Source: Cellulomonas sp. KRMCY2 (lineage in GTDB: Bacteria; Actinomycetota; Actinomycetes; Actinomycetales; Cellulomonadaceae). From it: a stretch of DNA of 64,000 nucleotides. The stretch's first letter is position 1. Each line of letters starts with the position of its first letter. Shown piece by piece: positions 21,640 to 50,895 of the stretch. Location of the stretch: NCBI RefSeq assembly GCF_000526515.1, contig NZ_JAGF01000001.1, positions 2,542,001 through 2,606,000 of the forward strand, in the 5' to 3' direction. The notes under the pieces were generated by a model. That model worked only from the letters and a program-made list of their open reading frames with translations, made no database searches and had not been told where the DNA came from. Position numbers and translations under genes: made by a program.

Positions 21640-21712
21640 CGCCCCGACCCGACCCGGCTCTGACCCGGACCTGACCCGACCGCACCACCGCACGAGCTCA
21701 TCGGAGAACCCC

Positions 21713-28049: not shown

Positions 28050-28442
28050 TCACACGGCGAACGGCACTCCGCAACGCAGCACGACGTTGGCGTATGCGGT
28101 GTCCTCACCCGTGCGGATCACCAGCTGGGAGCGGCCGACCATCGCCTTGAGCTCGTCGTGCGGCAGCCGCTGCGCCGGGGCGGACAGGCGCGTGTCGACC
28201 CAGCCGCCGGCGGGCCAGTCGTCCGCCGGGGCCGAGACCCACGCGTGCTCGACGACGATCTCGGCGAGCAGCGCGTCGAGCACGTCGGTGAACCGGGGCA
28301 GGCCGAAGACGATCGCGAGGTCGACCACAGGCACGTGCGCCGGCACCGGCAGCCCGGCGTCGGCGACGACGACGAGGTCCGTGTGGCCCAGACGTGCCAG
28401 ATGGCCGGACAGCGGGGCGTTGATGATCCCGGTGCGCTTCAT
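28050..28442 (-). CDS. rbsD: D-ribose pyranase RbsD
   Basis: This 130-residue cytosolic enzyme interconverts the pyranose and furanose forms of D-ribose so that ribokinase can use it. The catalytic His is residue 20 in SGHLARLGHTD. DLAIVFGLPRF and the C-terminal NVVLRCGVPF block are standard. It lies directly after rbsK with a 4-base ATGA overlap and converges on the GH78 gene 9 bases away. No ribose importer is in this small operon. The two nucleoside-hydrolase-like genes nearby could supply free ribose, which would explain the pair here. Confidence 0.95.
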   Translation of the reverse strand: MKRTGIINAPLSGHLARLGHTDLVVVADAGLPVPAHVPVVDLAIVFGLPRFTDVLDALLAEIVVEHAWVSAPADDWPAGGWVDTRLSAPAQRLPHDELKAMVGRSQLVIRTGEDTAYANVVLRCGVPFAV

Positions 28443-29380
28443 GGCAGAGGGTCGTCCTTCCAGGGGTAGGACGCCTGGGCACCCAGGCGTTGGACCGAGT
28501 ACGCCGCGACGCGGGTCGCGATGACGGCGGCGTCGCGCAGGGTGGCACCCCGCGCGAGGTGGGTGGCGAGCGCGCCGACGAACGCGTCACCCGCGCCGGT
28601 CGTGTCCCGCGGGGTGACGGTCCGCGCAGGCTCCGACCAGCTCCCGTCGGCCTCGACGCCGACGACGCCCGCCGCACCGAGCGTGACGAGCACACTGGGC
28701 ACGCCGAGCGCGTGGAGCCGCGCGGCCCTGGTCAGGGCGCCGTCACCCAGGGCGTCGGGGTCGCCCGTCAGGGGTGCGAGGTCGGCGCCGTGGTCGACGG
28801 CGGTCAGGACGATCGCGAGCTCGTGCTCGTTGACGACGAGCGGGTCCGCCAGGCGCAGGGTCGCCAGCGGCAGCGTGCAGGCCGGCGCGACGTTGAGCAC
28901 CACACGCACACCCGCCGCGGCGGCGACCTCGGCGGCCCGGGCCACGGCGTCGAGCGGGATCTCGGCCTGGAGCACGCACACCGCCGCGGCGCCGATCGTC
29001 CCGGCCGCGGCGTCGACCCGCTCGGTGGTCACCGAGGCGTTGGCGCCGGCCACCACCACGATGGTGTTCTCGCCGTCGTCCGCCAGCGTGACGACCGCCA
29101 GGCCGGTGGGGCCGGGGTGCACCGCGACCGCAGCCAGGTCGACGTCGGCAGCCCGCAGCTCGGCCAGGGCGGTGGCGGCCGTCGCGTCGTCACCGACTGC
29201 GCCGACCATGGCGGTGACGGCTCCCAGGCGAGCGGCGGCGACCGCCTGGTTGGCACCTTTGCCCCCCGCGAAGTGTGCGCCCGAGCCCCCGAGCAGGGTC
29301 TCGCCGGGCAGGGGGTGGCGCGGGACCGTGAGCACGAGGTCGACGTTGATCGACCCCACGACGACGACGTCGTACCGCAT
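28439..29380 (-). CDS. rbsK: Ribokinase RbsK
   Basis: This PfkB-family sugar kinase of 313 residues phosphorylates ribose with ATP. The first signature is HFAGGKGANQAVAAARLG at about residue 38 and the second is DTTGAGDAFVGAL at about residue 258, containing the catalytic Asp. The N-terminus VVVGSINVDLVL is typical. The ATG is followed by rbsD with an overlapping stop-start. The gene is divergent from the FGGY kinase operon, and the roughly 105-base gap between them holds that operon's promoter and operator. The PfkB family also includes deoxyribose and other pentose kinases, so ribose is the likely but not proven substrate. Confidence 0.94.
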   Translation of the reverse strand: MRYDVVVVGSINVDLVLTVPRHPLPGETLLGGSGAHFAGGKGANQAVAAARLGAVTAMVGAVGDDATAATALAELRAADVDLAAVAVHPGPTGLAVVTLADDGENTIVVVAGANASVTTERVDAAAGTIGAAAVCVLQAEIPLDAVARAAEVAAAAGVRVVLNVAPACTLPLATLRLADPLVVNEHELAIVLTAVDHGADLAPLTGDPDALGDGALTRAARLHALGVPSVLVTLGAAGVVGVEADGSWSEPARTVTPRDTTGAGDAFVGALATHLARGATLRDAAVIATRVAAYSVQRLGAQASYPWKDDPLP

Positions 29381-29410: not shown

Positions 29411-29439
29411 TTGACATCCGGCGCCAGTCTACTTACGGT
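29411..29439 (+). promoter_or_regulatory. Promoter of the FGGY kinase / importer operon
   Basis: TTGACA (29411-29416), a perfect -35, is followed after 17 bases by TACGGT (29434-29439), a TANNNT -10. Transcription would start at about 29446, just before the inverted repeat at 29450-29465. This supports the downstream GTG at 29487 as the kinase start, because an ATG at 29463 would lie only about 17 bases into the mRNA with no ribosome site. Confidence 0.7.
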
Positions 29440-29449
29440 GAGCCCAGTT

Positions 29450-29465
29450 CATTCAAGTCAGAATG
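29450..29465. promoter_or_regulatory. Operator candidate CATTC-N6-GAATG (site 1)
   Basis: CATTCAAGTCAGAATG is an inverted repeat with 5-base arms, placed 10 bases after the -10 element. A second site of the same form, CATTCATTGACGAATG, lies 9 bases after the -10 of the operon at 39742. The LacI gene at 38480-39514 lies between the two operons and is the obvious candidate to bind both. Confidence 0.6.
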
Positions 29466-29486
29466 CATATTCAAGGACGGTCGACG

Positions 29487-30992
29487 GTGATCGCTGGACC
29501 CGGTACGGAGCACGCTGCCGCAGGGCTGCTGCTCACCGTCGACCAGGGCACCACCAACACCAAGGCCCTGCTCGTCGACCCGGCCTCCGGGACCGTCCTG
29601 TCCACCGGCTCGCGCCCGGTCGGGATCACGTTCCCGGCCCCGGGCTGGGTCGAGCAGGACGCCACCCAGCTGTGGGACGCGACAGTCGAGGCCATCGGCA
29701 GCTGCCTGGCCCGGGTGCCCGACGCCCGGCCCGTGGGTCTGTCGATCTCCAACCAGCGCGAGTCCGTCGTGGCCTGGAGCCGCACCACGGGTGAGCCGCT
29801 CGGACCCGTGCTCGGCTGGCAGGACGCGCGCACCGCCGAGGCGTGCGGACGGCTCGCGCACGCAGCCGACGAGGTCAGGGCCCGCACGGGGTTGTCCCTC
29901 GACCCGATGTTCTCGGCGCCCAAGATGCGCTGGCTGCTCGACGCCGCGATCGAGGGCGGCGCCGCACCGCAGGACGTCTGCCTCGGCACCGTCGACTCCT
30001 GGCTCGTGCACCGGCTGACCGGGGAGCACCTCGTCGAGGCGGGCAACGCCTCGCGCACGCTCCTGCTCGACCTGCGCTCGCTCGACTGGCACGAGGCCCT
30101 GCTCGACCTCTTCGGCATCCCGGCCTCGGCGCTGGGCCAGGTCCGTCGCTCGGACGCGGGCTTCGGCACCACCCGCGCACAGGGCCCCGTGCCGGCGGGA
30201 GTGCCGGTCGTCGCCGTGCTGGCCGACTCGCACGCCGCGCTCTACCACCACGGATGCACCGCGCCGGGCACCGGCAAGGCGACCTACGGAACGGGCTCGT
30301 CCGTCATGACGCCGTGCACCACTCCCGACGCCGCCCCCGCGGGCATCGCCACCACGCTGGCCTGGCTGACCGACGCGCCCACGTACGCCCGCGAGGGCAA
30401 CATCGTCGCGAGCGGCTCGGCGCTGGACTGGATGGCCCGGACGCTCGGCGTGCCCGAGGGCACCTCGGGCGGTGCCTACCTCACGGCGCTGGCCCGCGGG
30501 TTGCCGGACGCCGGAGGCGTCTGCTTCGTGCCCGCGTTCTCCGGGCTCGGCGCCCCCTACTGGGACCGCTCGGCGATCGGGCTGCTCAGTGGCGTCACGG
30601 GCGGGACGTCGCGCGGCCACCTGGCCATGGCGGCCCTCGAGGCCGTCGCGCACCAGGTCGCGGACGTCGTCGAGGCGATCGAGCAGGACGGCTCCGCGCG
30701 GATCGATGTGCTGCACGCCGACGGCGGTGCGACAGCCTCGGACGTGCTCATGGGTCTGCAGGCCGACCTGCTGGGCCGCGCCGTGCTGGTCGCCGACGCC
30801 CCCGAGGCCTCGGCGCTGGGCGCCGCGGCGCTGGCCGCGCGCACCCTCGGCCTGCCGGTCGCAGCCCCGGTGCCCGGCACCCCGGTGGCGCCGCGGCTCG
30901 CGGCCGCCGACCGGACCGCCCGGCGCCATGCGTGGGCGGGCGCAGTCGCTCGATCGCGCGGACAGGTGCCGCCCCACCGCGCGCCGGGGTGA
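29487..30992 (+). CDS. FGGY-family pentulose/sugar kinase (candidate D-apulose kinase)
   Basis: This 501-residue cytosolic kinase transfers phosphate from ATP to a sugar or polyol. The first domain starts LLLTVDQGTTNTKALLVD and contains SNQRESVVAW and WQDARTAEA; the base Asp is in LADSHAALYHHG; the second domain has YGTGSSVMTP and LHADGGATASDVLM. It is closest in look to glycerol kinase, but the context (RbsABC-type importer, aldose isomerase, split transketolase) points to a ketopentose. In the published D-apiose pathway an FGGY kinase phosphorylates apulose next to exactly these genes. A GTG at 29487 with AAGGA upstream is used; an ATG at 29463 is possible. Confidence 0.88.
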   Translation: MIAGPGTEHAAAGLLLTVDQGTTNTKALLVDPASGTVLSTGSRPVGITFPAPGWVEQDATQLWDATVEAIGSCLARVPDARPVGLSISNQRESVVAWSRTTGEPLGPVLGWQDARTAEACGRLAHAADEVRARTGLSLDPMFSAPKMRWLLDAAIEGGAAPQDVCLGTVDSWLVHRLTGEHLVEAGNASRTLLLDLRSLDWHEALLDLFGIPASALGQVRRSDAGFGTTRAQGPVPAGVPVVAVLADSHAALYHHGCTAPGTGKATYGTGSSVMTPCTTPDAAPAGIATTLAWLTDAPTYAREGNIVASGSALDWMARTLGVPEGTSGGAYLTALARGLPDAGGVCFVPAFSGLGAPYWDRSAIGLLSGVTGGTSRGHLAMAALEAVAHQVADVVEAIEQDGSARIDVLHADGGATASDVLMGLQADLLGRAVLVADAPEASALGAAALAARTLGLPVAAPVPGTPVAPRLAAADRTARRHAWAGAVARSRGQVPPHRAPG

Positions 30993-31092
30993 GACCCACC
31001 CACCTCCACACTGCGGCTGCCCGGATCACGGCGCACCCGCACCGACGGACCCGGGCCCGGCCCGGACTGCTACCTCGAAGGAGAGGAAACCG

Positions 31093-31758
31093 ATGACGAC
31101 GACGGCCCCCACTCGCGTGCCGATGTGGCGACGGCCCCGGGCGATCGGCGGTGTCCTGACCGTCGCGGTGCTGGCCGCCGCCGTCGCAAGCACCACGTTC
31201 GTCCCCACCGGGAGCCAGGCCGTCGCGGCCGACACCGCCGTCGAGTTCGCCGAGCTCAACTACGGCACGGTCGTGGTCCCGACCATCGTCGACGCCGCGC
31301 AGCCGGCCGCCGACCTGCTCACGGCGATCGTCGCCGACCCCGACGCCGCAGGCGAGGAGTTCGGCAGCCGTGAGGACGCGACCAAGCCCTACAGCTTCGC
31401 CGTCGAGGCGACCGGCATCGTCACGGAGGGTGAGTTCGGCGAGGTCGGCCTGGACGTCGCGGGGCTGCCGGCCGGGCTGACCCTCGGCGTGGCCATCCCG
31501 CCGCTCGGCTCGTCCACAGCCGTCCGCGACGCGGGTGCCGACCTGTCGTTCGGCGACTTCGTCAACCAGACCGAGTACCAGAACGTCGCGATCGAGCTCA
31601 ACAAGAAGGTCGTCGAGACGGTCTTCCCCGAGCTGGACCTGGCGTCGATGATCGGTCAGGAGATCACCGTGGTCGGCGCGTTCACCTGGGTCTCGGACAC
31701 CGGCGGTGACATCGACCACGTCTCGGTGGTCCCCGTGCAGGTCGAGGTCACCCCGTGA
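31093..31758 (+). CDS. DUF2291 family membrane-anchored protein
   Basis: This is a 221-residue protein with one N-terminal membrane span (GVLTVAVLAAAVASTTFVP), so most of it lies outside the membrane. The conserved block AVRDAGADLSFGDFVNQTEY followed by NVAIELNKKVVE identifies DUF2291, a family almost always found beside RbsABC-like importers and of unknown function. Many relatives are lipoproteins; here no lipobox Cys is seen, so it is held by its uncleaved span. GAGAGGAAA precedes the ATG. Its stop overlaps the ATPase start (GTGA), tying it to the importer. A role in transporter assembly or sugar capture is plausible but unproven. Confidence 0.85.
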   Translation: MTTTAPTRVPMWRRPRAIGGVLTVAVLAAAVASTTFVPTGSQAVAADTAVEFAELNYGTVVVPTIVDAAQPAADLLTAIVADPDAAGEEFGSREDATKPYSFAVEATGIVTEGEFGEVGLDVAGLPAGLTLGVAIPPLGSSTAVRDAGADLSFGDFVNQTEYQNVAIELNKKVVETVFPELDLASMIGQEITVVGAFTWVSDTGGDIDHVSVVPVQVEVTP

Positions 31759-33323
31759 GCGCGCCCGAGGTGGGCGCCCCGGCCGGTGCGGCCGCGGACG
31801 TCGTCATGCGTGCGCGGGCCGTGACCAAGGTCTACGGCGGTACGTACGCGCTGCGCGGGGTCGACTTCGACGTCCCACGCGGTCACGTCACGGCGCTCAT
31901 CGGCGAGAACGGCGCCGGCAAGTCCACCCTCATGAAGATCCTCGCCGGGGTCGAGACACCGACCACGGGCACCATCGAGCTGGACGGGCGGCCGGTGGCA
32001 TTCCGCTCCCCGGCCGAGGCTGTCGCGCACGGGGTCGCGATCATCCACCAGGAGCTCAACCTCTGCCCCAACCTGTCCATCGCCGACAACATCTTCGTCG
32101 GCCGCGAGCAGACCCGTGGCGCGTTCGTGGACTTCGCGGCCCAGCGTCGCGCGGCCACCGAGCTGCTGGCGCACCTCGAGGAGCCGATCGATCCTGGCAT
32201 GCTGGTGGGCGACCTGCGGCTGGGCCAGCAGCAGCTCGTCGAGATCGCCCGCGCACTGAGCGAGGACGCGCGCGTGCTCATCATGGACGAGCCCACCTCG
32301 GCGCTCTCGGCGGTCGAGGTCGAGGTGCTGTTCCGGGTGATCCGCGAGCTCACCGCGCGCGGCGTCTCGATCATCTACATCTCGCACCACCTCGACGAGT
32401 GCCTGGCGATCGCGGACCGCGCGGTCGTCCTGCGCGACGGCGACGTCGTGGCGCAGGCCCCGATGGCGCAGGTCGACCTCGCGTGGATCGTCGCCCAGAT
32501 GGTCGGCCGCGAGGAGAGTGCGCTGTACGCGCCGATGGCGCACGACCCGGGCGAGCCGATCCTCGAGATCCGCGACCTCATCGTCGCTGACCCGGACGGC
32601 CCCGAGCGCCTCGCCGTGCGCGGTGTGAGCCTCACGGTCCACGCCGGTGAGGTCGTCGGGCTGTACGGGCTGATGGGTGCAGGGCGTACCGAGATGCTCG
32701 AGGCCATCGCCGGCCGCAACCCGGTCCTCGGCGGCTCGGTGGTGCTCGACGGTCGCGACCTGACCCGGGCGTCGATCCCGGAGCGGATCAGTGCCGGGCT
32801 CGTCCTGGTGCCCGAGGACCGCCAGCGCGACGGCCTGGTCCAGGCGCTGACGGTGGGTCGCAACATGTCGCTGGCCGCCGTGACGCGGTTCGCGAACGGG
32901 CTGTTCGTCCGGCGCGGTCAGGAGCGCGCGGCGGTCGACGAGACCTCGCGCCAGGTGCGCGTCAAGGGGGCCGGCCAGGACGCCCCGATCGGCTCGTTGT
33001 CCGGCGGCAACCAGCAGAAGGTCGTCATCGGCAAGGCCCTGCTCACCGAGCCCCGTGTCCTGGTGCTCGACGAGCCGACCCGCGGGATCGACGTCGGCGC
33101 CAAGGCCGACATCTTCGCGCTCATGGCGGCGCAGGCCCGGGCCGGGACCGGGGTGCTCTTCGCGACCTCCGAGGTCGGCGAGGTGCTGCACGCGTCCGAC
33201 CGGATCGTCGTCATGGCGCGCGGCCAGGTCGCGGCCGTGCTCGACCCGCGCCGGACCGACAGGGAACAGCTCATGGCGGCCTCGGACGTCTCGTCCGCCG
33301 CCCGGACCACGGACGAGGACTGA
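31755..33323 (+). CDS. ABC sugar importer ATPase, RbsA/XylG type
   Basis: This 522-residue protein holds two ATPase domains in tandem, as in all CUT2 sugar importers. The first has Walker A GENGAGKST, signature LRLGQQQLVEIARAL and Walker B LIMDEPTSAL. The second has the usual degenerate Walker A GLMGAGRTE with signature LSGGNQQKVVIGKAL and Walker B LVLDEPTRGID. It would power uptake of a pentose bound by the lipoprotein at 34475. A GTG start overlaps the previous stop. The permease follows 2 bases after the stop. Confidence 0.94.
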   Translation: MSAPEVGAPAGAAADVVMRARAVTKVYGGTYALRGVDFDVPRGHVTALIGENGAGKSTLMKILAGVETPTTGTIELDGRPVAFRSPAEAVAHGVAIIHQELNLCPNLSIADNIFVGREQTRGAFVDFAAQRRAATELLAHLEEPIDPGMLVGDLRLGQQQLVEIARALSEDARVLIMDEPTSALSAVEVEVLFRVIRELTARGVSIIYISHHLDECLAIADRAVVLRDGDVVAQAPMAQVDLAWIVAQMVGREESALYAPMAHDPGEPILEIRDLIVADPDGPERLAVRGVSLTVHAGEVVGLYGLMGAGRTEMLEAIAGRNPVLGGSVVLDGRDLTRASIPERISAGLVLVPEDRQRDGLVQALTVGRNMSLAAVTRFANGLFVRRGQERAAVDETSRQVRVKGAGQDAPIGSLSGGNQQKVVIGKALLTEPRVLVLDEPTRGIDVGAKADIFALMAAQARAGTGVLFATSEVGEVLHASDRIVVMARGQVAAVLDPRRTDREQLMAASDVSSAARTTDED

Positions 33324-33325
33324 AC

Positions 33326-34435
33326 ATGGCCACGACCACGGCATCACGGACGACGCTGGCGGCGCCCGCCGCGAACCAGCGGACCATCGGCGAGTTCCTG
33401 CTCGACCAGCGCGCCTTCGTCGCGCTCATCGTGCTGGTGATCATCTTCTCGCTGCTGTCGGACGCCTTCCTCACCCCGACCAACCTCATCACCATGACCA
33501 AGCACGTGGCCTACAACGCGATCCTCGCGCTGGGCATGCTGCTGGTCATCGTCACCGGCGGGATCGACCTGTCGATCGGCTCGATCGTCGGCCTGTCCGG
33601 GATCGTCGCGGGCGTCATGCTGCGCGGCTGGGAGCTGTCCCTGTTCGACGCGACCGCCTACCCGGCGGTGTGGGTGGTCATCCTGGTCGCGCTCGCCGTC
33701 GGCGGGGTGGTCGGGCTGCTCAACGGGCTGCTGGTCACCCGGTTCAACGTGGCACCCTTCATCGCGACCCTCGGCACGATGTACGTCGCGCGCGGCGCGG
33801 CCCTGCTCATCTCCGACGGGGCGACGTTCCCGAAGCTGCAGGGGGAGGCGGCCCTCGGCAACACCGGCTTCCGGATCCTCGGGACCGGCCGACCGCTCGG
33901 CATCCCCACGGCCATCTGGATCATGGTCCTGTTCGCCGTGATCATCGCCGTGGTGGTCACGCGAACCCCGTTCGGCCGCTGGCTCTACGCCACGGGCGGC
34001 AACGAGCGCGCGGCCCAGCTGGCAGGCGTGCCGGTCCGCTCGGTGAAGATGCGCGTCTACATGATCTCGGGCGTGTGCGCCGCGATGGCGGGTCTCATCA
34101 TCGCCTCGGAGCTCACGTCCGCGGCACCGCAGACCGGCACGACGTTCGAGCTCAATGCGATCGCGGCCGTCGTCATCGGCGGTGCGTCGCTCTCGGGCGG
34201 ACGCGGCACGGTCAAGGGCGCGCTCATCGGCGCGTTCGTCATCGGCTTCCTCTCGGACGGCCTGGTCATGGTCGGGGTCTCCAGCTTCTGGCAGACCGTG
34301 ATCAAGGGCCTGGTCATCGTCCTGGCCGTCATGCTCGACCAGGGTCAGCAGAGGTTGAAGAACGCTCGAGCGGCCGCCGTCGCCGCGCAGAGCGTCAAGC
34401 GTGAGCTGGCGGCAGCACATCCCGACGCGCGCTGA
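33326..34435 (+). CDS. ABC sugar importer permease, RbsC type
   Basis: This is a 369-residue CUT2 permease with about eight to ten hydrophobic spans. Typical RbsC blocks are NAILALGMLLVIVTGGIDLSIGS and the loop GNERAAQLAGVPVRSVKM, followed by ALNAIAAVVIGGASLSGGRG-like sequence (here FELNAIAAVVIGGASLSGG) that forms the ATPase contact. The C-terminus is basic. It is positioned 2 bases after the ATPase gene and 39 bases before the binding protein, giving the order DUF2291-A-C-B. Substrate is set by the binding protein, not this subunit. Confidence 0.94.
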   Translation: MATTTASRTTLAAPAANQRTIGEFLLDQRAFVALIVLVIIFSLLSDAFLTPTNLITMTKHVAYNAILALGMLLVIVTGGIDLSIGSIVGLSGIVAGVMLRGWELSLFDATAYPAVWVVILVALAVGGVVGLLNGLLVTRFNVAPFIATLGTMYVARGAALLISDGATFPKLQGEAALGNTGFRILGTGRPLGIPTAIWIMVLFAVIIAVVVTRTPFGRWLYATGGNERAAQLAGVPVRSVKMRVYMISGVCAAMAGLIIASELTSAAPQTGTTFELNAIAAVVIGGASLSGGRGTVKGALIGAFVIGFLSDGLVMVGVSSFWQTVIKGLVIVLAVMLDQGQQRLKNARAAAVAAQSVKRELAAAHPDAR

Positions 34436-35494
<1,059 letters not shown>

Positions 35495-35499
35495 GCACT

Positions 35500-35537
35500 G
35501 GTCCCGGCCCGTGCCCCACGGGGCGCGGGCCGGGACC
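35500..35537 (+). promoter_or_regulatory. 12-bp perfect hairpin after the RbsB-type gene
   Basis: GGTCCCGGCCCG (35500-35511) pairs perfectly with CGGGCCGGGACC (35526-35537), and the loop adds an inner GCCCC/GGGGC stem. It begins 6 bases after the stop, with no U-tract. It may end some transcripts and protect the binding-protein mRNA, while a new promoter just downstream restarts the metabolic genes. Confidence 0.75.
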
Positions 35538-35560
35538 GACCGCGTCGGCGCGGCTCGACC

Positions 35561-35569
35561 TGCTACCAT
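35561..35569 (+). promoter_or_regulatory. Extended -10 promoter for the isomerase-transketolase genes
   Basis: TGCTACCAT combines the extended TGn element with a TANNNT -10. No good -35 is seen, as usual for extended -10 promoters. It lies between the hairpin and the isomerase gene and would let the metabolic genes be transcribed apart from the importer. Confidence 0.4.
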
Positions 35570-35597
35570 GTGCATCAACGATCGGAGATGAATAGAA

Positions 35598-36590
35598 ATG
35601 TCTGAGTACCCCCGCTTCGGTGCCGGCCTGTGGCACTTCGCGAGCTACGTCGACCGCTACGCCACCGACGGCTACGCGCCGCCGGTCACGACCCTCGAGC
35701 AGATCGCCCTGGCCGGTGCGGTCGGCGACCTGTCGGTGGTCGACGTGCCCTACCCGTTCACCGAGGGAGTGACCGTCGAGCAGGTCAAGGCCGCGCTCGC
35801 GGAGAACGGCCTCGAGGCGATCGGCGTCACGCCGGAGATCTACATGCGCCGCTTCAGCAAGGGCGCCTTCACCAACCCTGACGCTGCGGTCCGGGCCGAG
35901 GCGCTCGAGGCGCTCAACGAGGCCGCTGATGTGGTCCGCGCGCTCGGCGCCCGGTACCTCAAGGTGTGGCCGGGCCAGGACGGCTGGGACTACCCGTTCC
36001 AGGTCGACCACCACACGCAGTGGGAGCTCGCTGTCTCCGGGATGCGTGAGCTGGCGCTGGCGAACCCCGACATCAAGATCGTCATCGAGTACAAGCCGCG
36101 CGAGCCGCGCAACAAGATGTTCTGGGACTCGGCAGCCAAGACTGCGCTCGGCATCAAGGCGATGGGTGTGGACAACGTCGGCGTGCTGCTGGACTTCGGC
36201 CACGCGCTCTTCGGTGGCGAGTCGCCGGCGGCGGCCGCCCAGCTGCTCATCGACCACGGCCTGCTGTGGGCGATGGACGTCAACGACAACCTGCGCAGCT
36301 GGGACGACGACATGGTCGTCGGCACCGTGCACCCGGTCGAGGTCTTCGAGTTCTTCTACACGCTGAAGATCAACAACTGGGAGGGCATCTGGCAGCTCGA
36401 CCAGTTCCCGTTCCGCGAGAACACCGTCGAGGCCGCCAAGCTCTCGATCCGCTTCCTCAAGGGCATCCACCGCGCCCTGGAGGAGCTGGACATCGACGCC
36501 CTGCGCGCGGCCCAGGCACGCCAGGACGCGATGGGTGCGCAGAAGCTCGTCCAGGACGTCCTGTTCTCCTGCCTGCGGGAGGGCGAGTGA
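35598..36590 (+). CDS. TIM-barrel sugar isomerase (candidate D-apiose isomerase)
   Basis: This is a 330-residue cytosolic protein of the xylose-isomerase-like TIM-barrel group. Metal and catalytic residues are visible as Glu in [16 protein letters not shown], Asp/His in [14 protein letters not shown] and Asp in [17 protein letters not shown], with HP in [11 protein letters not shown]. It should interconvert an aldose and a ketose. Between an RbsABC-type importer and a split transketolase, and with an FGGY kinase upstream, it fits the D-apiose to D-apulose step of the known apiose pathway. A rhamnose- or xylulose-type isomerase is the alternative. GGAG precedes the ATG; its stop overlaps the next start (GTGA). 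Confidence 0.85.
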
Positions 36591-37507
36591 GCGCGGTCGA
36601 GGAAGACCTGGTCCCCGCGCTCGACCCGACCGGCCTGCCGGTGGACGAGCTGCCCGTGATGGGTCGGATCGACGCGTCAGCCGGCCGCGAGGCCGTCGTC
36701 GCGCACCTCGCCGAGGCGGCCCGGCAGGTCCGCCGCCGCGACATCCAGATGATCCGGGCCGCGGGCCTGGGGCACATCGGCGGCGAGTTCTCGGTCATCG
36801 ACATCCTCGTGACCCTGTACCTGCACGCGCTCGACGTCACGCCGCAGACGGTGACGGACCCGGAGCGGGACCGGCTCATCCTCTCCAAGGGGCATGCGGC
36901 CGCCGCCCTCTACACGACGCTGTCCATCGCCGGGTTCATCCCGCCGGCGGAGCTGAGCACCTTCATGCGGCCGCTCGCCCAGCTCAACGGGCACCCTGCG
37001 CGGACCAAGATCGCGGCTGTCGAGGCCAGCACCGGGCCGCTCGGTCACGGGCTGCCGATCGCCGTCGGCACGGCGTTCGGCGGGGCGCTCGACGGCTCGC
37101 CGCGGCGCACCGTCGTGGTGGTCGGCGACGGCGAGCTCCAGGAGGGCTCGAACTGGGAGGCCCTCATGACGGCCGGCAACCACCGGCTGGCGAACCTCTG
37201 CGTCGTCGTGGACCGCAACCGCCTGCAGCAGGGCGCGCGGGTCGCCGACACCAACGACCTCGAGCCGCTCGCCGACAAGCTCCGTGCCTTCGGCATGGAG
37301 GTCGTCGAGGTCGACGGGCACGACCACGGCGCCCTGGTCGATGTCTTCGCCGCCGTCCCGGCGGCCTCGGGCAGACCGACGGCCGTCATCGCCCACACGT
37401 TCAAGGGTCACCCGATCTCCTTCATGTCCGACGACGTCGCCTGGCACCACAAGGTCCCGTCGCCGGAGCAGGTGGCCACCGCGCTGATCGAGCTGGAGAC
37501 CCCGTGA
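36587..37507 (+). CDS. Transketolase N-terminal subunit (candidate apulose-4-phosphate transketolase)
   Basis: This 306-residue cytosolic subunit carries the thiamine-diphosphate-binding half of a transketolase. [17 protein letters not shown] and [15 protein letters not shown] are the N-terminal signature, and [18 protein letters not shown] followed by VVVDRNRLQ is the GDG-x(n)-N cofactor and metal motif. The other half is the next gene, with an overlapping GTGA, so the two form one enzyme. Split transketolases of this sort sit in sugar-specific operons; in the apiose pathway such an enzyme moves a glycolaldehyde unit from apulose-4-phosphate. A GTG start is used because it overlaps the isomerase stop. 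Confidence 0.92.
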
Positions 37508-38469
37508 GCACCGACACCGCACCCGTCCCCGCAACGGAGCGGGCCCTGCACGACTGCCGCGACGCCTTCGTCGCGACCCTCCTCGAGCTCGCCGCGGACG
37601 ATCCGCGGATCGTCGCGGTCGTCAACGACTCCGTCGGCTCGAGCAAGCTCGGCCCGTTCGGCACGGCCTACGGGCCGCGCCTGATCAACGTCGGCATCGC
37701 CGAGCAGGACATGGTCGGTGTGGGTGCCGGCCTGGCCAACGGTGGCAAGATCCCCTTCATCTCCGCGGCAGCGTGCTTCCTCACGGCCCGTGCGATGGAG
37801 CAGATCAAGGTCGACGCCGCCTACTCCCAGCACCACATGGTCCTGTGCGGGATGAGCCCGGGGATGGCCTACGGGGAGCTCGGCCCGACGCACCACTCCA
37901 TCGAGGACCTCGCCTGGCTGCGGGCGATCCCGGGCCTGACCGTGGTGGTCCCGTCCGACCCCGCCGAGACGGCGCAGGCGGTTCGGTGGGCTGCGGCGCA
38001 CGACGGACCGGTGTACCTGCGGATCAGCCGGATGGGTGTGCCGGACGTCAACCCCGAGGGCTACCAGTTCGTCCCGGGCAAGGCAGTCACGCTGCGCGAG
38101 GGCACCGACGTGACGATCGTCGCCACCGGCACGGTCGTCGTCCGGGCACTGGACGCCGCCGACCTGCTGGCCGGGGCGGGCATCTCGGCCCGGGTGCTGT
38201 CGATGCCGACCATCAAGCCGCTCGACGAGGAGGCCGTCATCGCGGCCGCCCGCGAGACCGGCGCGATCGTCACGGTCGAGGAGGCACTGACCTCGGGTCT
38301 GGGCGGGGCGGTCGCCGAGGTGGTCGTGCGTCACGCGCCGGTGCCGATGCGGTTCGTCGGCGTCCCGGACACCTTCGCGCCCACCGGCTCGGTCGAGTGG
38401 CTGCTCGACCACTTCGGCATCAGCGCGGAGGGTGTCGCCGCGTCCGCGCGGGAGGTCCTGGGTCGCTGA
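37504..38469 (+). CDS. Transketolase C-terminal subunit (candidate apulose-4-phosphate transketolase)
   Basis: This 321-residue subunit completes the split transketolase. The pyrimidine-binding domain contains NVGIAEQDMVGVGAGLA, whose Glu activates the cofactor, and GPTHHSIEDLAWLRAIPGL with the substrate-site His pair. The transketolase C-terminal domain follows with VTIVATGTVVVRALDAADLL. Start GTG overlaps the stop of the first subunit. It is the last gene of the operon and converges on the lacI gene 10 bases away. Substrate choice depends on this pair and on context; a general pentose-phosphate transketolase is normally one long chain, so a specialised role is likely. Confidence 0.92.
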   Translation: MSTDTAPVPATERALHDCRDAFVATLLELAADDPRIVAVVNDSVGSSKLGPFGTAYGPRLINVGIAEQDMVGVGAGLANGGKIPFISAAACFLTARAMEQIKVDAAYSQHHMVLCGMSPGMAYGELGPTHHSIEDLAWLRAIPGLTVVVPSDPAETAQAVRWAAAHDGPVYLRISRMGVPDVNPEGYQFVPGKAVTLREGTDVTIVATGTVVVRALDAADLLAGAGISARVLSMPTIKPLDEEAVIAAARETGAIVTVEEALTSGLGGAVAEVVVRHAPVPMRFVGVPDTFAPTGSVEWLLDHFGISAEGVAASAREVLGR

Positions 38470-38479
38470 ACCCACGCCG

Positions 38480-39514
38480 TCAGCCGATCGGCGCCGTCGA
38501 CTCGCGGGCTCTGAGCACGGGCTCGACGATCCTCCGTTCGAGGCGCTCGCCGGTGCGGATCCGCTCGTGGATCATCGCGAAGGCCGTGGCCCCGAGCTCG
38601 GTGAAGTCGAGGTAGACGGAGGACAGCGGGGGGGCGAAGTACCGCGCGTCCGGCATGTCGTCGATCCCGACGATCGAGTAGTCGTCGGGCGCCGCGAACC
38701 CGCGCGAGCGCAGCGCGCTCATGAAGCCGAGCGCCATCTGGTCGTTCCCCGCGAAGACCGCCGTGAAGGCGTCGGGGTCGACCGTGAGCCCCGCCGCGTG
38801 GCCCGACGCCGCCGACCAGTCGCCGCGCACGAGGGGCAGCGGCTCGGCGCCGTGCTCGGCCAGCGCGTCCTGGTAGCCGCGGTTGCGGTCGACGGCCTCG
38901 ATCCGGGTGGCCGGCCCGGCCAGGTGCAGGATCCGGCGGTGGCCCAGCCCGGTGAGGTGGCGGGTCGCGAGGAGGCCGGCCGCGTAGGAGTCGGCGGTTG
39001 CGGCGTCCGCGCCGGACCACGGACGGCCCGAGACGGTGACCACGGGCAGGGTGTCCCAGATCCGGTCGAGCAGGTGCTCGGTGCCGAGGAACGGCGTGGA
39101 CACGACGATCCCGTCGACCCGGGAGGACAGGAAGCCGTCGAGCGCATGGCGCACCTCGGCCAGGGCGCCGGCGTCCTCGGTGTCGATGTCGAGCTGGGCG
39201 ATGAGCAGCGAGTACCCGGTGGCCCGGGCAGCCCGGCTGAGGCCACCGAGGATCGACCACAGGCCGTAGTTCGACTGGCCCATGGCCAGGACACCGACCG
39301 TCTCGGAGCGGCTGCTCCGCAGGCTGCGCGCGGTGCGGTTGGGTCGGTAGCCGAGCTCGGCGACCGCGGCCTCGATCCGCTCGCGGGCGGGTGCGCTGAC
39401 GTAGCCCGAGCCGGTGAAGAACCGCGAGACGGTCTGCGCCGAGACCTCGGCGACGCGACCGACGTCCGCCATGCTCGCCCGGGTCCGTGGGGAAGGATTC
39501 GTGGACCGGGTCAC
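38480..39514 (-). CDS. LacI-family regulator of the pentose regulon
   Basis: This is a 344-residue DNA-binding repressor. The helix-turn-helix is MADVGRVAEVSAQTVSRFF at about residue 15 and the hinge is RPNRTARSLRSSRS. The sugar-binding domain contains DGIVVSTPFLG and FAGNDQMALGFMSALRSRG, then VGIDDMPDARYFAPPLSSV. A GTG at 39514 with GGAGGCGG upstream is used. It is convergent with the transketolase operon and divergent from the nucleoside-hydrolase/importer operon, so it lies between two transcription units that both carry a CATTC-N6-GAATG inverted repeat after their promoters. It is therefore the likely repressor of both, induced by a pentose or its phosphate. Confidence 0.92.
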   Translation of the reverse strand: MTRSTNPSPRTRASMADVGRVAEVSAQTVSRFFTGSGYVSAPARERIEAAVAELGYRPNRTARSLRSSRSETVGVLAMGQSNYGLWSILGGLSRAARATGYSLLIAQLDIDTEDAGALAEVRHALDGFLSSRVDGIVVSTPFLGTEHLLDRIWDTLPVVTVSGRPWSGADAATADSYAAGLLATRHLTGLGHRRILHLAGPATRIEAVDRNRGYQDALAEHGAEPLPLVRGDWSAASGHAAGLTVDPDAFTAVFAGNDQMALGFMSALRSRGFAAPDDYSIVGIDDMPDARYFAPPLSSVYLDFTELGATAFAMIHERIRTGERLERRIVEPVLRARESTAPIG

Positions 39515-39633: not shown

Positions 39634-39661
39634 TTGCACCGGCTGATGTGTTATCGATAAC
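39634..39661 (+). promoter_or_regulatory. Promoter of the nucleoside-hydrolase/importer operon
   Basis: TTGCAC (39634-39639) and GATAAC (39656-39661) are spaced by 16 bases. The -10 lies within the palindrome GTTATCGATAAC (39650-39661). The start of transcription would be near 39668, just before the CATTC-N6-GAATG site, matching the layout of the kinase operon. Confidence 0.45.
39650..39661. promoter_or_regulatory. 12-bp perfect palindrome on the -10 region
   Basis: GTTATCGATAAC is a perfect palindrome with a central CG, the shape of many LacI-family operators. It overlaps the -10 of the operon starting at 39742, so a protein bound there would block initiation. It is not present at the kinase promoter, so it may serve a second regulator. 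Confidence 0.5.
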
Positions 39662-39670: not shown

Positions 39671-39686
39671 CATTCATTGACGAATG
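39671..39686. promoter_or_regulatory. Operator candidate CATTC-N6-GAATG (site 2)
   Basis: CATTCATTGACGAATG is an inverted repeat with 5-base arms, 9 bases downstream of the -10. It matches site 1 at 29450-29465 in arms, spacer length and position relative to the promoter, pointing to a common regulator. Confidence 0.6.
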
Positions 39687-39741
39687 GAAATTCACACCAC
39701 CCGTCCTGACGAACCGGGTGGCCTCGACGGAGAGGACCGCC

Positions 39742-40749
39742 ATGACGCAGCCGACCTGGACCCTGGGCCGGACGCCCTGGATCTCGGACGACGACGCCCA
39801 CCCCGGCCCCCGCTGCCGGGTGATCGTCGACAACGACTTCTCGGGGGACCCCGACGACCTCTTCCAGGTGGTCCACCACGTGCTGTCCCCGTCGGTGGAC
39901 ATCCGCGCGATCATCGGCTCGCACCTGCGTCCCGGCGACCCGTTCGACGGCGGGCCGACAACCGCCGCGAACGCCGTGGCGCGACTGCGCGAGCTGTTCG
40001 CCGTCATGGGCCTGGACGCCGAGGACCGGATCGTCCAGGGCTCCGACGTCGCCCTGGTGGACCGGACCACCCCGCAGGACACCCCCGCGGCCCGCGCGAT
40101 CATCGCCGAGGCGATGCGCGCCGATGTCGACACCCCGCTCTACGTGGTGTGCGGCGGCGGGCTGACGGACCTGGCCAGCGCGTGGCTGCTCGAGCCCGCG
40201 ATCTCCGACCGCCTGACGGTCGTGTGGATCGGCGGCCCGGAGCACCCCGGGCTCGCCGCCGAGCCGCCCGGCGTCACCGACCCCGAGTACAACCTCGCCA
40301 TCGACGTCGTGGCCGGCCAGGTGCTCTTCAACGACGCGGACCTGCCGCTGTGGCAGGTGCCGCGGAACATGTACCGCCAGTGCCTGGTCTCCGACATCGA
40401 GCTGCGTCGGCGGGTCGCGACGCGCGGGGCGCTGGGGCGCTTCCTCTACGACGCGCTCGGTGGCGTGGACCGGTTCGTCCGGGCCTCGGGGGCGCTGCGC
40501 GCCGAGACCTACGCGCTGGGCGACTCCCCGCTGGTGCTGCTCACGGCGCTGCAGTCGTACTTCCAGCCGGACACCTCCTCGAGCGACCACGTCGTCGTGC
40601 CCGCGCCCCGGCTCACGGACGACGGCGATGCCGAGCCCCGCGCGGACGGTCGTCCGATCCGCGTCTACACGCGGCTCGACACGCGCCTGATGTTCGAGGA
40701 CATGTTCGGCAAGCTCGAGGCCTTCGCCCAGTGGCGCGCCCAGGCCTGA
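39742..40749 (+). CDS. Nucleoside-hydrolase-like protein (importer operon copy)
   Basis: This 335-residue cytosolic protein is a paralogue of the one at 24208. It has the same blocks: DNDFSGDPDDLFQVVHHVL, IIGSHLRPGDPF, WIGGPEHPGL, EYNLAIDVVAGQVLF and ALGDSPLVLLTALQSYF. The N-terminal calcium motif again has the D-x-D-x-x-G-D-P-D form instead of DxDPGxDD. It is the first gene of an operon with a MalEFG-type importer. The ATG at 39742 follows GGAGAGGA. It probably hydrolyses an imported N- or O-pentofuranoside. A true nucleoside is one option, but the shared operator with the kinase operon suggests it serves the same pentose pathway. Confidence 0.86.
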   Translation: MTQPTWTLGRTPWISDDDAHPGPRCRVIVDNDFSGDPDDLFQVVHHVLSPSVDIRAIIGSHLRPGDPFDGGPTTAANAVARLRELFAVMGLDAEDRIVQGSDVALVDRTTPQDTPAARAIIAEAMRADVDTPLYVVCGGGLTDLASAWLLEPAISDRLTVVWIGGPEHPGLAAEPPGVTDPEYNLAIDVVAGQVLFNDADLPLWQVPRNMYRQCLVSDIELRRRVATRGALGRFLYDALGGVDRFVRASGALRAETYALGDSPLVLLTALQSYFQPDTSSSDHVVVPAPRLTDDGDAEPRADGRPIRVYTRLDTRLMFEDMFGKLEAFAQWRAQA

Positions 40750-40823
40750 CCCAGTTCCCGCACCGGCGCGCGCGCCAGAGGCGGGTTGCACCGACGTCCG
40801 ACCCACGAAGGAGTGACGACACG

Positions 40824-42119
40824 ATGGAGGCAAGGATGCGTTTCACACGGCAATCGGCCGTCGCGGCCGCCGCGGCAGCAGCGCTCGTCGCGCTCGCCGG
40901 CTGCAGCGGCAGCGGCAGCGGTGACGGCGGCACGACGGACGGCGAGGGCGGCGAGAGCGTCGACCTCAAGGTCTGGATGCCCACCCAGGAGGACGCCCAG
41001 ACGGAGGCGATCGCGACGGTCATCGCCGACTTCGAGGCCGCCAACCCCGGGATCACCATCACACTCGAGGAGCGCTCGGTCGACGCCCACAAGGAGGCCC
41101 TGCGCCAGGTCGTCGGCACGGACGCCGGCCCGGACGTCTACTGGTACTGGGAGGGCCCGGGCCTGGGCGGCGAGCTCGTCGACGTCGGCATGAGCCTCGA
41201 CCTGACGGACTACTACGCGCAGTACGGCTGGGAGGACCGCTTCACGGAGGCGGGCCTGGCCGGCATCACCCAGTACGGCGGGTTCCACGGCATCCCCTGG
41301 ACGATGCAGGGTGAGGCGATCTACTACAACAAGGCGCTCTTCGAGCAGGCCGGCATCACCGAGCCCCCGGCAAGCTACGAGGACCTCGTCGCAGCCGCGG
41401 ACGCGCTCGTCGCGGCGGGCACCACGCCGATCCAGTTCGGCGGCACGGTCAACTGGCACGTCATGCGCCTGCTCGACGCCCTCATCGAGACGACGTGCGG
41501 CAGCGACACGGCCGACGCCCTCAACACCACCCAGACCGGGTGGGACACCGAGGAGTGCGTGACCGAGGCGTTCACCGAGCTCAAGACGTGGGGCGAGAAG
41601 TACATCAACGAGGGCTTCATGGGGATCAGCAACGACGACTCCAGCCAGCTCTTCTACACCGGTGACGCCGCGATGGCCTTCGAGGGCACGTGGTTCGACT
41701 CCAACGCGGTCGAGAACGGGATGGACCCCGAGAACGTCGGGATCTTCACCTTCCCGACCGACACCGGCCGGCTGTACGGCTTCGGCGAGGGCTTCTACAT
41801 CAACGCCGAGAGCGCACACCCGGACGAGGCCGCGATGTTCCTCGACTCGGCCACGTCGACGGCGACCCAGGAGAAGGTCGTCGGCGTGTGGGTGGCCATG
41901 TCCGTCAACAACGAGGTCGCCCCGAAGACCGACAACCCCCTGCACGAGCTGTGGGTCCCGGTCTTCTCCGGCGCCACGGGCCTGTACATCAACAACGACC
42001 AGAACCTGGCGCTGGACCAGACCACGGAGTACTGGCGGATCCAGAACTCGGTGCTGACCGGTGACATCGCCCCGCAGGACGCCGGGGCCGCGTTCCAGGC
42101 GTTCATCGACGCGAGCTAG
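40824..42119 (+). CDS. ABC sugar-binding lipoprotein, MalE type (family 1)
   Basis: This 431-residue extracellular binding protein delivers substrate to the two permeases downstream. Its signal peptide ends in the lipobox LAGC, and a Gly/Ser-rich linker follows. The mature protein has the family-1 layout, with VIADFEAANPGITITLEERS, FHGIPWTMQGEAIYYNKALF, and TGDAAMAFEGTWF. An ATG at 40824 with AAGGAG upstream is used; an ATG at 40836 with GGAGG is equally plausible. The co-transcribed nucleoside-hydrolase-like gene suggests the ligand is a pentofuranoside conjugate rather than a large oligosaccharide. A GC hairpin follows the stop codon. Confidence 0.92.
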   Translation: MEARMRFTRQSAVAAAAAAALVALAGCSGSGSGDGGTTDGEGGESVDLKVWMPTQEDAQTEAIATVIADFEAANPGITITLEERSVDAHKEALRQVVGTDAGPDVYWYWEGPGLGGELVDVGMSLDLTDYYAQYGWEDRFTEAGLAGITQYGGFHGIPWTMQGEAIYYNKALFEQAGITEPPASYEDLVAAADALVAAGTTPIQFGGTVNWHVMRLLDALIETTCGSDTADALNTTQTGWDTEECVTEAFTELKTWGEKYINEGFMGISNDDSSQLFYTGDAAMAFEGTWFDSNAVENGMDPENVGIFTFPTDTGRLYGFGEGFYINAESAHPDEAAMFLDSATSTATQEKVVGVWVAMSVNNEVAPKTDNPLHELWVPVFSGATGLYINNDQNLALDQTTEYWRIQNSVLTGDIAPQDAGAAFQAFIDAS

Positions 42120-42127
42120 CGCCGCAC

Positions 42128-42162
42128 GGGTGCGGGGGCTGCACGTCGCGACCCCCGCACCC
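42128..42162 (+). promoter_or_regulatory. 11-bp perfect hairpin after the MalE-type gene
   Basis: GGGTGCGGGGG (42128-42138) pairs with CCCCCGCACCC (42152-42162) around a 13-base loop. It starts 8 bases after the stop, has no U-tract, and the permease genes follow. It resembles the hairpins after the other three binding-protein genes. Confidence 0.7.
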
Positions 42163-42184
42163 CGGCCCATCCCTGGAGGACAAC

Positions 42185-43123
42185 GTGTCGACCACCACCT
42201 CGCCTGCCGCGACGGACGCGATGCGGAGCCGCCGCCACCGGCGGCACGGCAACCGCTTCCTGGCCGCTGTGCCCTACCTCGCCCCGGCGGCCCTGCTCTA
42301 CGGCTTCTTCCTCGTCTACCCGATGCTCGACTCGGTCCGGCTGTCGTTCTTCGAGTGGTCCGGCTTCCGCACCGAGGAGCCCACCTTCGTCGGGACGGAC
42401 AACTACGTCCGGCTCTTCACCGCGGACCCGGTCTTCTGGGCCGCGTTCCGCAACTCGATCATCTGGGTCGTGCTGTCCCTGCTCGTCCCGATGACGCTGA
42501 GCCTGCTGCTCGCGCTCGCCCTCAACCGGCGGATGGTCGGCCGCAACCTCTTCCGCTCCGTCTTCTACATCCCCGCCGTCTTCGCCTCGATCACCGTGGC
42601 GGCGATGTGGCGCTGGATCTACAACCCCACCCTCGGCACGGTCAACCAGGTGCTCGAGGCGGTCGGCCTGGAGTCCTGGAGCCGCCAGTGGCTGGGGGAT
42701 CCCGACATCGCTCTCTACTCGGTCTTCGTCGCCGCCATCTGGCAGGGCGTGGGTTTCAACATGGTGCTGTTCCTCGCCGGGCTCCAGCAGGTCCCGGTCG
42801 AGCTCGTCGAGGCCGCCAAGCTCGACGGCGCGCGCGGCCCGCAGATCTTCCGCCACGTGACGATGCCGGCCCTGCGGCCCACCTTCGTCGTCGTGCTGAT
42901 CCTGACGATCATCAGCTCGCTCAAGGTCTTCGACCTGGTGGTCGGCATGACGGGCGGCGGCCCGGCGCAGTCCACCCAGGTCCTGGCGCTGTGGTCGTAC
43001 ACGCAGTCGTTCTCGAACCACAACTTCGGCCAGGGTGGTGCCGTCGCGACAGTGCTGCTCGTCATCTCCCTGTGCCTCGTCGTGCCCTACCTCACCTGGG
43101 CCCTCAAGGGAGAGGACCGCTGA
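42185..43123 (+). CDS. ABC sugar importer permease, MalF type
   Basis: This 312-residue CUT1 permease has six spans, beginning FLAAVPYLAPAALLYGFFLV. The ATPase-docking loop is VEAAKLDGARGPQIF at about residue 212, followed by HVTMPALRPTFVVVLILTI. FDLVVGMTGGGPAQSTQVL is the typical MalF C-terminal block. The GTG start follows CTGGAGGAC. It lies 65 bases after the binding protein and the intervening DNA holds the hairpin. Its stop overlaps the next ATG by one base. No dedicated ATPase gene is present, so a shared MsmK-type ATPase is likely. Confidence 0.93.
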   Translation: MSTTTSPAATDAMRSRRHRRHGNRFLAAVPYLAPAALLYGFFLVYPMLDSVRLSFFEWSGFRTEEPTFVGTDNYVRLFTADPVFWAAFRNSIIWVVLSLLVPMTLSLLLALALNRRMVGRNLFRSVFYIPAVFASITVAAMWRWIYNPTLGTVNQVLEAVGLESWSRQWLGDPDIALYSVFVAAIWQGVGFNMVLFLAGLQQVPVELVEAAKLDGARGPQIFRHVTMPALRPTFVVVLILTIISSLKVFDLVVGMTGGGPAQSTQVLALWSYTQSFSNHNFGQGGAVATVLLVISLCLVVPYLTWALKGEDR

Positions 43124-44004
43124 TGGCCACCGCAACCCTCACCCGCGTGCCCACGGGCACGGCGTCGGCGACCCGCAGGCCGCGCGACTGGGTCGGCATC
43201 GGCCTGTGGATCGCCCTGGCGATCTCGGCGATCGCCTGGGCGACGCCCTTCGTGTTCATGTTCCTCACCTCGGTGAAGAGCAAGGCCGACGTCAGCCAGC
43301 TGTCGACCTGGGACCTGCCGACGGTCTGGCTCTGGCAGAACTACGCCGACGCCGTGCAGACCGGCGACCTGTGGGTCACCGGGGGCAACAGCCTGCTCAT
43401 CGCGCTCGTCAAGGTGCCGTTGGGCCTGCTGGTCGCCTCGGCGACGGCGTTCGCGCTGGGCCGCCTGCGGTTCCGCCGGTCCAAGCTCGTGCTGGGGCTG
43501 TTCGCCGTCGGCTCGATGGTGCCCATCCAGGTGGCCCTCGGCCCGCTGTTCAACACGATGCTCTCGCTGGACCTGCTGGACTCGCGCGCCGGGCTGCTGC
43601 TGCCCTACCTGGCGTTCGGCATCCCGTACCAGGTGTTCATGCTCTACGGCTTCTTCAAGGCCATCCCGGACGAGCTCGACGAGTCGGCCCGGATCGACGG
43701 CGCCTCGACCTTCCGGGTGTACTGGCAGATCTGCCTGCCGCTCGCGCGGCCGGCGCTCGCGGCGCTGTTCATCCTCGACTTCGTCGCCACCTGGAACGAG
43801 TACGCGATGGCGACGACCCTCCTGCAGAGCCAGTCCAACTGGACCATCCCGCTGGCCGTCCAGGGCTTCAGCTCGCAGCACGCGACGGACTACGGCGCGC
43901 TCAACGCCTTCATCATCCTGTCGGCGGTCCCCGTCCTCATCGTCTATCTGATGTTCCAGCGGTACTTCGTACAAGGTGCCTTCTCCGGCGCTGTCAAGGG
44001 GTAG
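43123..44004 (+). CDS. ABC sugar importer permease, MalG type
   Basis: This 293-residue CUT1 permease pairs with the MalF-type one upstream. The first span is WIALAISAIAWATPFVFMFL, the docking loop ELDESARIDGASTFRVYWQ is at about residue 185, and LPLARPALAALFILDFVATW completes the block. The ending RYFVQGAFSGAVKG is the classic MalG C-terminus. The ATG overlaps the previous stop (TGATG). The SorC regulator gene begins soon after with no terminator visible between, so read-through into it and ribB is possible. Confidence 0.93.
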   Translation: MATATLTRVPTGTASATRRPRDWVGIGLWIALAISAIAWATPFVFMFLTSVKSKADVSQLSTWDLPTVWLWQNYADAVQTGDLWVTGGNSLLIALVKVPLGLLVASATAFALGRLRFRRSKLVLGLFAVGSMVPIQVALGPLFNTMLSLDLLDSRAGLLLPYLAFGIPYQVFMLYGFFKAIPDELDESARIDGASTFRVYWQICLPLARPALAALFILDFVATWNEYAMATTLLQSQSNWTIPLAVQGFSSQHATDYGALNAFIILSAVPVLIVYLMFQRYFVQGAFSGAVKG

Positions 44005-44114
44005 CTGCGATGCGGTGGAGGGAGTCGTCGGCGTCCGGACGGAGCGGCCTCTAGGATCGCTGTGGCATGAATGGGTCGTCAGCCCTGACTAGGACCCCCG
44101 AGAGGAGACCTGCT

Positions 44115-50888: not shown

Positions 50889-50895
50889 CAGCGCA

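Follow-up and report, generated by a model that had tools for sequence, protein, structure and literature searches.

A candidate two-operon regulon for D-apiose catabolism by the transketolase route in the actinobacterium Cellulomonas sp. KRMCY2

The genome of Cellulomonas sp. KRMCY2 (GCF_000526515.1) is a single contig of 4.50 Mb. A stretch of 64,000 nt from it, referred to below as the window (NZ_JAGF01000001.1, positions 2,542,001-2,606,000, forward strand), was analyzed because an operon at 29411-39514 of this stretch had been predicted to serve the catabolism of D-apiose. Genes were called from codon usage and domains were assigned with Pfam. All components named in the original prediction were present in the order given there, i.e. 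an FGGY kinase, a DUF2291 protein, an importer of the RbsA/C/B type, a TIM-barrel isomerase, a split transketolase, and a LacI regulator. Codon usage was coding-like for every listed gene, and the domain matches of the core operon were well above cut-off. The features are as follows (SBP, solute-binding protein).

29450-29473, + strand: operator 1, CATTCANNNNNGAATGNANATTCA, 0 mismatches, upstream of and overlapping the annotated kinase start
29463 (or 29487)-30992, + strand: FGGY kinase of the AplK type (putative D-apulose kinase); PF00370/PF02782, tree
31093-31758, + strand: DUF2291 protein of the importer operon; PF10054, 118 bits against a cut-off of 22.5
31755-33323, + strand: CUT2 importer ATPase, RbsA-type; Pfam, 51% identity to a Rhizobium SL42 cluster protein
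33326-34435, + strand: CUT2 importer permease, RbsC-type; Pfam
34475-35494, + strand: CUT2 solute-binding lipoprotein, RbsB-type
35598-36590, + strand: xylose-isomerase-like TIM barrel of the ApsI type (putative D-apiose isomerase); 3ktc, Pectobacterium cluster proteins
36587-37507, + strand: transketolase N-terminal subunit (TktN), AptA-type; PF00456, tree
37504-38469, + strand: transketolase C-terminal subunit (TktC), AptB-type; PF02779/PF02780
38480-39514, - strand: LacI-family regulator, divergent from the second operon; PF00356/PF13377

The DUF2291, RbsA, and RbsC genes are contiguous, and overlaps of 4 bp join DUF2291 to RbsA, the isomerase to TktN, and TktN to TktC. The annotated ATG of the kinase at 29463 lies inside the conserved operator, so that the GTG at 29487 is the likelier and probably the true start. 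Inspection by eye revealed a strong GC-rich inverted repeat between the SBP and isomerase genes (35494-35598); the isomerase gene may therefore have its own promoter or be subject to attenuation.

The core operon stood as predicted, but a second operon at 39742-45727 had been overlooked, as had rbsD/rbsK at 28050-29380 and a further gene, NH1, at 24220-25161. The second operon comprises the following features.

39671-39694, + strand: operator 2, same consensus CATTCANNNNNGAATGNANATTCA, 0 mismatches
39742-40749, + strand: NH2, a protein with a nucleoside hydrolase (NH) fold and candidate intracellular apiofuranosidase
40836-42119, + strand: CUT1 importer SBP; PF01547; adjoins NH2 and the core in L014, L017, L060, and L084
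42185-43123, + strand: CUT1 importer permease 1; PF00528
43123-44004, + strand: CUT1 importer permease 2; PF00528
44067-45107, + strand: SorC-type sugar-binding regulator; PF04198, 194 bits
45104-45727, + strand: stand-alone DHBP synthase (RibB) paralogue; PF00926

The closest solved relative of the isomerase was 3ktc (529 bits over 325 residues), which we take to be a protein of P. atrosepticum. After 3ktc, xylose and rhamnose isomerases scored at most 65.4 bits. NCBIfam offered no apiose model and only distant matches to rhamnose and xylose isomerases, far below cut-off. Relatives of the isomerase were collected in a GTDB scan, and the loci of the best 80 of 336 (65-90% identity) were analyzed; their gene content was counted within the fetched flank. 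The nearest isomerase among them, from a Cellulomonas, was 90% identical. Those of Pectobacterium were 67-69% identical to the window protein, which places it in the ApsI type, and they are clustered with genes for the SBP, ATPase, permease, TktN, TktC, and kinase (e.g. L073). The Pectobacterium strains compared were other than P. carotovorum WPP14, whose cluster gene apsI is termed a D-apiose isomerase gene in PMC13001218. Isomerase, kinase, and both transketolase halves occurred together in 55 of the 80 loci. On a Streptomyces plasmid, this core adjoins genes for a pectinesterase, a GH28 protein, and an arabinofuranosidase.

Elsewhere in the genome, a transketolase match in an open frame of 850 aa (L097) and a kinase of the GlpK group (L091) were found; thus, the split transketolase and FGGY kinase of the window are extra copies. 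In NCBIfam the window kinase matched GlpK with 404 bits, short of the cut-off of 590. A kinase tree of 45 chosen rows, read with a warning of long outgroup branches, placed it in a 37-row clade (support 95/90) with AplK of Escherichia coli SE15 and the kinases of Klebsiella and Pectobacterium, all from isomerase- or dehydrogenase-version clusters. Four GlpK proteins, including that of the same genome, were set apart (100/99), which ruled out a glycerol kinase at 29463-30992. In a tree of 42 rows, TktN grouped with SE15 AptA and Pectobacterium proteins in a 36-row clade (96/89). Outside it lay a Subdoligranulum protein, the long transketolase of the genome, and split transketolases that belong to other operons in Mesorhizobium, Shinella, and Pantoea. 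A general pentose-phosphate transketolase was ruled out by this tree and by the copy in the 850-aa frame. TktC was compared by BLAST only. The E. coli SE15 genes ECSF_RS02670-RS02715 are the D-apiose cluster that served as query in PMC13001218. Identities to this cluster were 40% for the kinase, 42% for TktN/AptA, 45% for TktC/AptB, 53% for the permease, 45% for the ATPase, 41% for the SBP, and 26% over 145 aa for DUF2291. The supposed kinship with apiose-cluster proteins was thus borne out by a Pectobacterium-like isomerase, by a kinase and a TktN lying inside apiose-cluster clades, and by the similarity of TktC to AptB.

Both operons carry the 24-bp operator CATTCANNNNNGAATGNANATTCA, for which the expectation in the shuffled window was 0.00. 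With up to 3 mismatches allowed, the 4.5-Mb genome contains no match besides those at 29450 and 39671. The operator was found in 48 of the 80 loci at up to 3 mismatches and in 37 at up to 2, and the reversed control in none of the 80. When 7 chosen loci were added to these 80 (87 in all), 46 of the 61 loci with kinase and TktN contained the operator, from E. coli to Deinococcus. The listed matches, up to three per locus, were nearly all situated within ~230 bp upstream of a match to one of eight genes (SBP, kinase, DUF2291, SorC, isomerase, TktN, NH2, or rbsK); 3 were near none. In E. coli SE15 and Klebsiella, aplK and aptA have such sites upstream of them with 3 mismatches, as does the TktN gene of Deinococcus. 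As the consensus was built from the window's own sites, distant matches are weaker evidence than actinobacterial ones. Homologues of SorC were present in 45 of 85 loci including SE15 (39% identity), which makes SorC the likeliest binder of the operator; the protein encoded at 44067-45107 would thus likely regulate both operons. The LacI regulator reached at least 250 bits in 3 of the 80 loci (L014, L016, and L060). A perfect palindrome, GTTATCGATAAC, at 39650-39661 is a candidate LacI operator. Among 175 fetched loci, TGTTATCGATAAC was found only in the own-genome locus L109, so the palindrome is not conserved.

Given the observed gene identities, orthology, linkage, and shared operator sequence, we put the probability that the two operons of this plant-feeding actinobacterium form a regulon for D-apiose catabolism by the transketolase pathway at roughly 0.87. 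From homology, linkage, and shared regulation we infer the sugar, each enzyme activity, the operator-binding regulator, and the role of the hydrolase discussed below. The CUT2 importer would take in D-apiose, the isomerase would convert it to D-apulose, and the FGGY kinase would form D-apulose 4-phosphate. The two-subunit transketolase would then transfer a ketol group to glyceraldehyde 3-phosphate, yielding xylulose 5-phosphate and dihydroxyacetone phosphate. The reactions of isomerase, kinase, and transketolase are established knowledge of the apiose pathway. The CUT1 importer and the enzyme with the nucleoside hydrolase fold probably bring in and cut an apiose-containing glycoside, and SorC most likely binds the operator common to both operons. 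The original proposal of an apiose operon gained support from the identity of the isomerase, the kinase and TktN trees, the importer type with DUF2291, the gene linkage, and the operator, although the sugar itself is deduced.

The transketolase pathway, D-apiose degradation I (MetaCyc PWY-8089; ApsI, AplK, AptA, and AptB), was reportedly described by Carter et al. in 2018, as cited in PMC13001218. The window resembles it in the isomerase, FGGY kinase, split transketolase, CUT2 importer with DUF2291, regulator class, and related operator sites. It differs in its actinobacterial host, in the added operon with the NH-fold protein, CUT1 importer, and RibB paralogue, and in the LacI and rbsDK genes. 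The E. coli SE15 and Klebsiella clusters share the importer, DUF2291, kinase, SorC-type regulator, AptA/AptB, and operator-like sites (3 mismatches) with the window, but two SDR dehydrogenases take the place of the isomerase. Literature searches gave no match for apulose, nor for apiose isomerase together with transketolase and apulose, and nothing on DUF2291; the first two results are weak because most subscription papers lay outside the coverage. RuBisCO-like proteins of apiose pathways are mentioned in PMC6302742.

Several observations weigh against the assignment to apiose. Kinase and transketolase are only 38-45% identical to the SE15 and Pectobacterium cluster proteins, and E. coli lacks the isomerase. 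The full core was missing from the flank of 25 of the 80 isomerase loci (L021, L029-L040, and others), many of them from Pantoea and other Enterobacterales; hence, the isomerase can serve elsewhere. (A few of the loci lacking the core keep an operator upstream.) The operator was not found in 15 of the 61 loci with kinase and TktN, it occurred in 6 of the 26 others, and, with up to 3 mismatches allowed, the reversed pattern matched once by chance in the KRMCY2 genome. Furthermore, the rbsD/rbsK neighbors and the title of the SBP structure 4ry0 point to ribose. It is conceivable that orthology to apiose enzymes misleads and that the pathway serves another related sugar or sugar alcohol, such as another branched or keto pentose. 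Such an alternative would fit the moderate identity to the compared members and the kinase and transketolase orthologues in clusters where dehydrogenases replace the isomerase (SE15, Klebsiella, Deinococcus, and Agrobacterium). However, the window isomerase is 68-69% identical to the Pectobacterium type, and apiose supported growth of E. coli strains whose cluster is of the dehydrogenase version: PMC13001218 reports growth on this sugar for P. carotovorum WPP14 and E. fergusonii and for three E. coli strains, other than SE15, that have the cluster, but none for E. coli K-12. We regard a different substrate as improbable.

The importer could also be the ribose system of the cell (RbsABC with RbsD and RbsK), mainly transporting ribose, with isomerase, kinase, and transketolase added for apiose or another pentose. 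Indeed, rbsD and rbsK are here transcribed divergently from the kinase gene and are present in 5 and 6 of the 80 loci, respectively; the nearest solved SBP carries the title of a ribose transporter SBP; and a second close RbsB-like SBP was not found in the genome, the next best being 28% identical. The 61% identity of the window SBP to RHE_PF00037 counts in favor of apiose; we take 5ibq to have been solved with D-apiose and 4ry0 with D-ribose. On the other hand, the CUT2 importer accompanied 39 of the 55 core loci, whereas rbsK accompanied only 6, and the importer shares synteny and operator with the SE15 and Klebsiella clusters, in whose fetched stretches no rbsK was listed. An importer devoted mainly to ribose is thus highly improbable; with rbsD/rbsK beside the apiose operon, it is possible that it serves both sugars.

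The neighboring features upstream of the core are as follows.

12540-24208, + strand: upstream glycan operon with a peptide-type ABC importer (12540-17982), GH43, GH42, and GH3
24220-25161, + strand: NH1, second nucleoside-hydrolase-like protein, inside the GH operon; PF01156, 42.5 bits
25158-28040, + strand: GH78 alpha-L-rhamnosidase; PF17389, 386 bits
28050-28442, - strand: RbsD-type sugar mutarotase, divergent neighbor; PF05025
28439-29380, - strand: ribokinase RbsK, divergent neighbor; TIGR02152, 269 bits, below the cut-off of 300

The operon with GH43, GH42, GH3, and GH78 at 18030-28040 was confirmed. The suggestion that these glycoside hydrolases release apiose gained no support. GH140 (PF13204) had no match in the genome, whereas 2 of 14 control genomes matched, indicating that the search works. 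GH140-type release was thereby ruled out.

Modeling assigned a nucleoside hydrolase fold to NH2, and NH1 is 57% identical to this protein. NH2 differs from nucleoside hydrolases (IU_nuc_hydro, PF01156; 1mas) in its low identity to 1mas (23%), in an Asp motif altered to DNDxxGDPD, and in a gene setting of plant glycosides and apiose. Nine sequences share the invariant residues D30, N31, D32, G35, D36, P37, D38, E182, Y183, N184, G260, and D261. The E-x-N motif aligns to 1mas, and the Asp motif is shifted by one residue; the assignment of the invariant residues to individual residues of the characterized nucleoside hydrolase is our assumption. A viral fold library gave only weak or irrelevant matches to NH2, the best being a giant-virus nucleoside hydrolase. 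NH2 was found in 7 of the 80 loci. In L014, L017, and L084, the genes for NH2, SBP, and two permeases form a single array with those for kinase, isomerase, and transketolase; in L060, NH2 and CUT1 lie next to the core as in the window. In L052 the NH2 match overlaps the kinase match.

Co-occurrence was analyzed in 248 genomes of the order, with E value thresholds of 1e-60 for the isomerase and 1e-20 for NH; the latter also admits into the counts a second, distant NH subtype (34-42% identity, motif NTDAKNEADDQ, L122 and L154). The isomerase was present in 19 genomes, NH-like proteins in 31, and both in 14 (Fisher p = 8e-11, relatedness ignored); NH thus occurred in 14 of the 19 isomerase genomes and in 17 of the 229 others. 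In 10 of the 14 shared genomes, the two genes were at most ~18 kb apart on one contig, and in 4 they were on different contigs. The 17 NH stretches without isomerase were scanned with the window proteins, and genes were called in L122, L124, and L126. In L122 and L124, NH2 and CUT1 (58-77% identity to the window) stand beside D-apionate-lactonase-like proteins, for which NCBIfam gave NF049900 as the sole match at E 1e-5 (1.9e-55 and 7.2e-55), below its curated cut-off (~187 against 750 bits); in L122 the gene is truncated where the stretch ends. Other neighbors in both are a PGDH_C dehydrogenase and a TIM barrel, and L122 holds TPI- and RpiB-like genes. The assignment of a TPI-like gene in L124 is based solely on its first residues. 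The PGDH_C protein, which we call ApnO-like partly on the strength of its PF16896 match, occurred in 29 of the 248 genomes. NH was present in 15 of these (p = 2e-8, relatedness ignored), and in 6 the two lay within 10 kb of each other. At least one apiose marker (isomerase or ApnO-like) was present in 24 of the 31 NH genomes and in 18 of the 217 without NH (p = 4e-16, relatedness ignored). NH is not exclusive to the isomerase: of the 31 NH genomes, 17 are without it and 7 without either marker.

We tentatively propose that NH2, and likewise NH1, is an intracellular beta-D-apiofuranosidase whose substrate would be a glycoside taken up through the CUT1 importer, and that such an enzyme may be common to two non-homologous apiose pathways, the isomerase/transketolase and the D-apionate types. 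The nucleoside hydrolase superfamily has a furanoside site that binds a cis-diol; NH2 would apply this site to apiose rather than ribose. The proposed reaction, release of apiose, is like that of GH140 apiosidases (PF13204), whereas the fold is that of a nucleoside hydrolase. Alternatively, NH2 and NH1 might be ordinary nucleoside hydrolases that free ribose and have no connection to apiose, a view compatible with an apiose regulon. The clear fold and family match, the nearby rbsDK, and the isomerase-less NH genomes agree with it, as do the 7 plasmid stretches with NH homologues (L159-L165), none of which holds an isomerase, kinase, or transketolase match. It is at odds with the position of NH2 under the apiose operator here and in several relatives, with the absence of rbsK from the flank of 6 of the 7 NH2-bearing loci, with the enrichment of NH in isomerase genomes, with its place beside D-apionate-type genes in two isomerase-less genomes, and with its place beside GH1 or beta-glucosidase in two sphingomonads. 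We consider the purely nucleosidic role rather unlikely. The sphingomonad plasmid homologues adjoin GH1 (L161), beta-glucosidase (L162), GH43/GH3 (L163), and quercetin dioxygenase (L165), where trimming of flavonoid glycosides is a possible function. On a Microvirga plasmid (L164:11013-14852), a CUT1 SBP and two permeases, in the same relative order as in the window, are followed by an NH homologue; identities in this array are 33-47%. A CUT2 ATPase and permease (49% and 61%) lie ~8 kb from this array.

The RibB paralogue gene overlaps the SorC gene by 4 bp. A second RibB copy is encoded at 3553884 of the genome (50% identity, open frame of 460 aa). In a tree of 12 rows with a weak root, the RibB copies at actinobacterial apiose loci formed a 6-row clade (95/94) apart from it. 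RibB genes neighbor the apiose-type clusters of Cellulomonas, Demequina, Haloactinopolyspora, Rhizobium, and Agrobacterium; in rhizobial clusters of this type, ribB is also near kinase or transketolase genes. Farther downstream (47749-61146), a DeoR/LacI-type regulator, a heparinase-like protein, DUF2264, a CUT1 importer, GH88, and an FAA hydrolase resemble a system for use of uronic-acid polysaccharides.

The branched sugar apiose is a constituent of rhamnogalacturonan II and of many flavonoid glycosides. A literature search gave no match joining it to a nucleoside hydrolase, a weak result because of the coverage noted above. The regulon described here would extend the transketolase route for apiose to actinobacteria, and the cross-phylum operator would offer a means of finding apiose regulons. 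NH2 is a testable candidate for the apiose-freeing step in a genome without GH140. If the proposal is true, NH2 would represent a new type of glycosidase for apiose, with a fold known for N-ribosides adapted to O-linked glycosides of a plant sugar.

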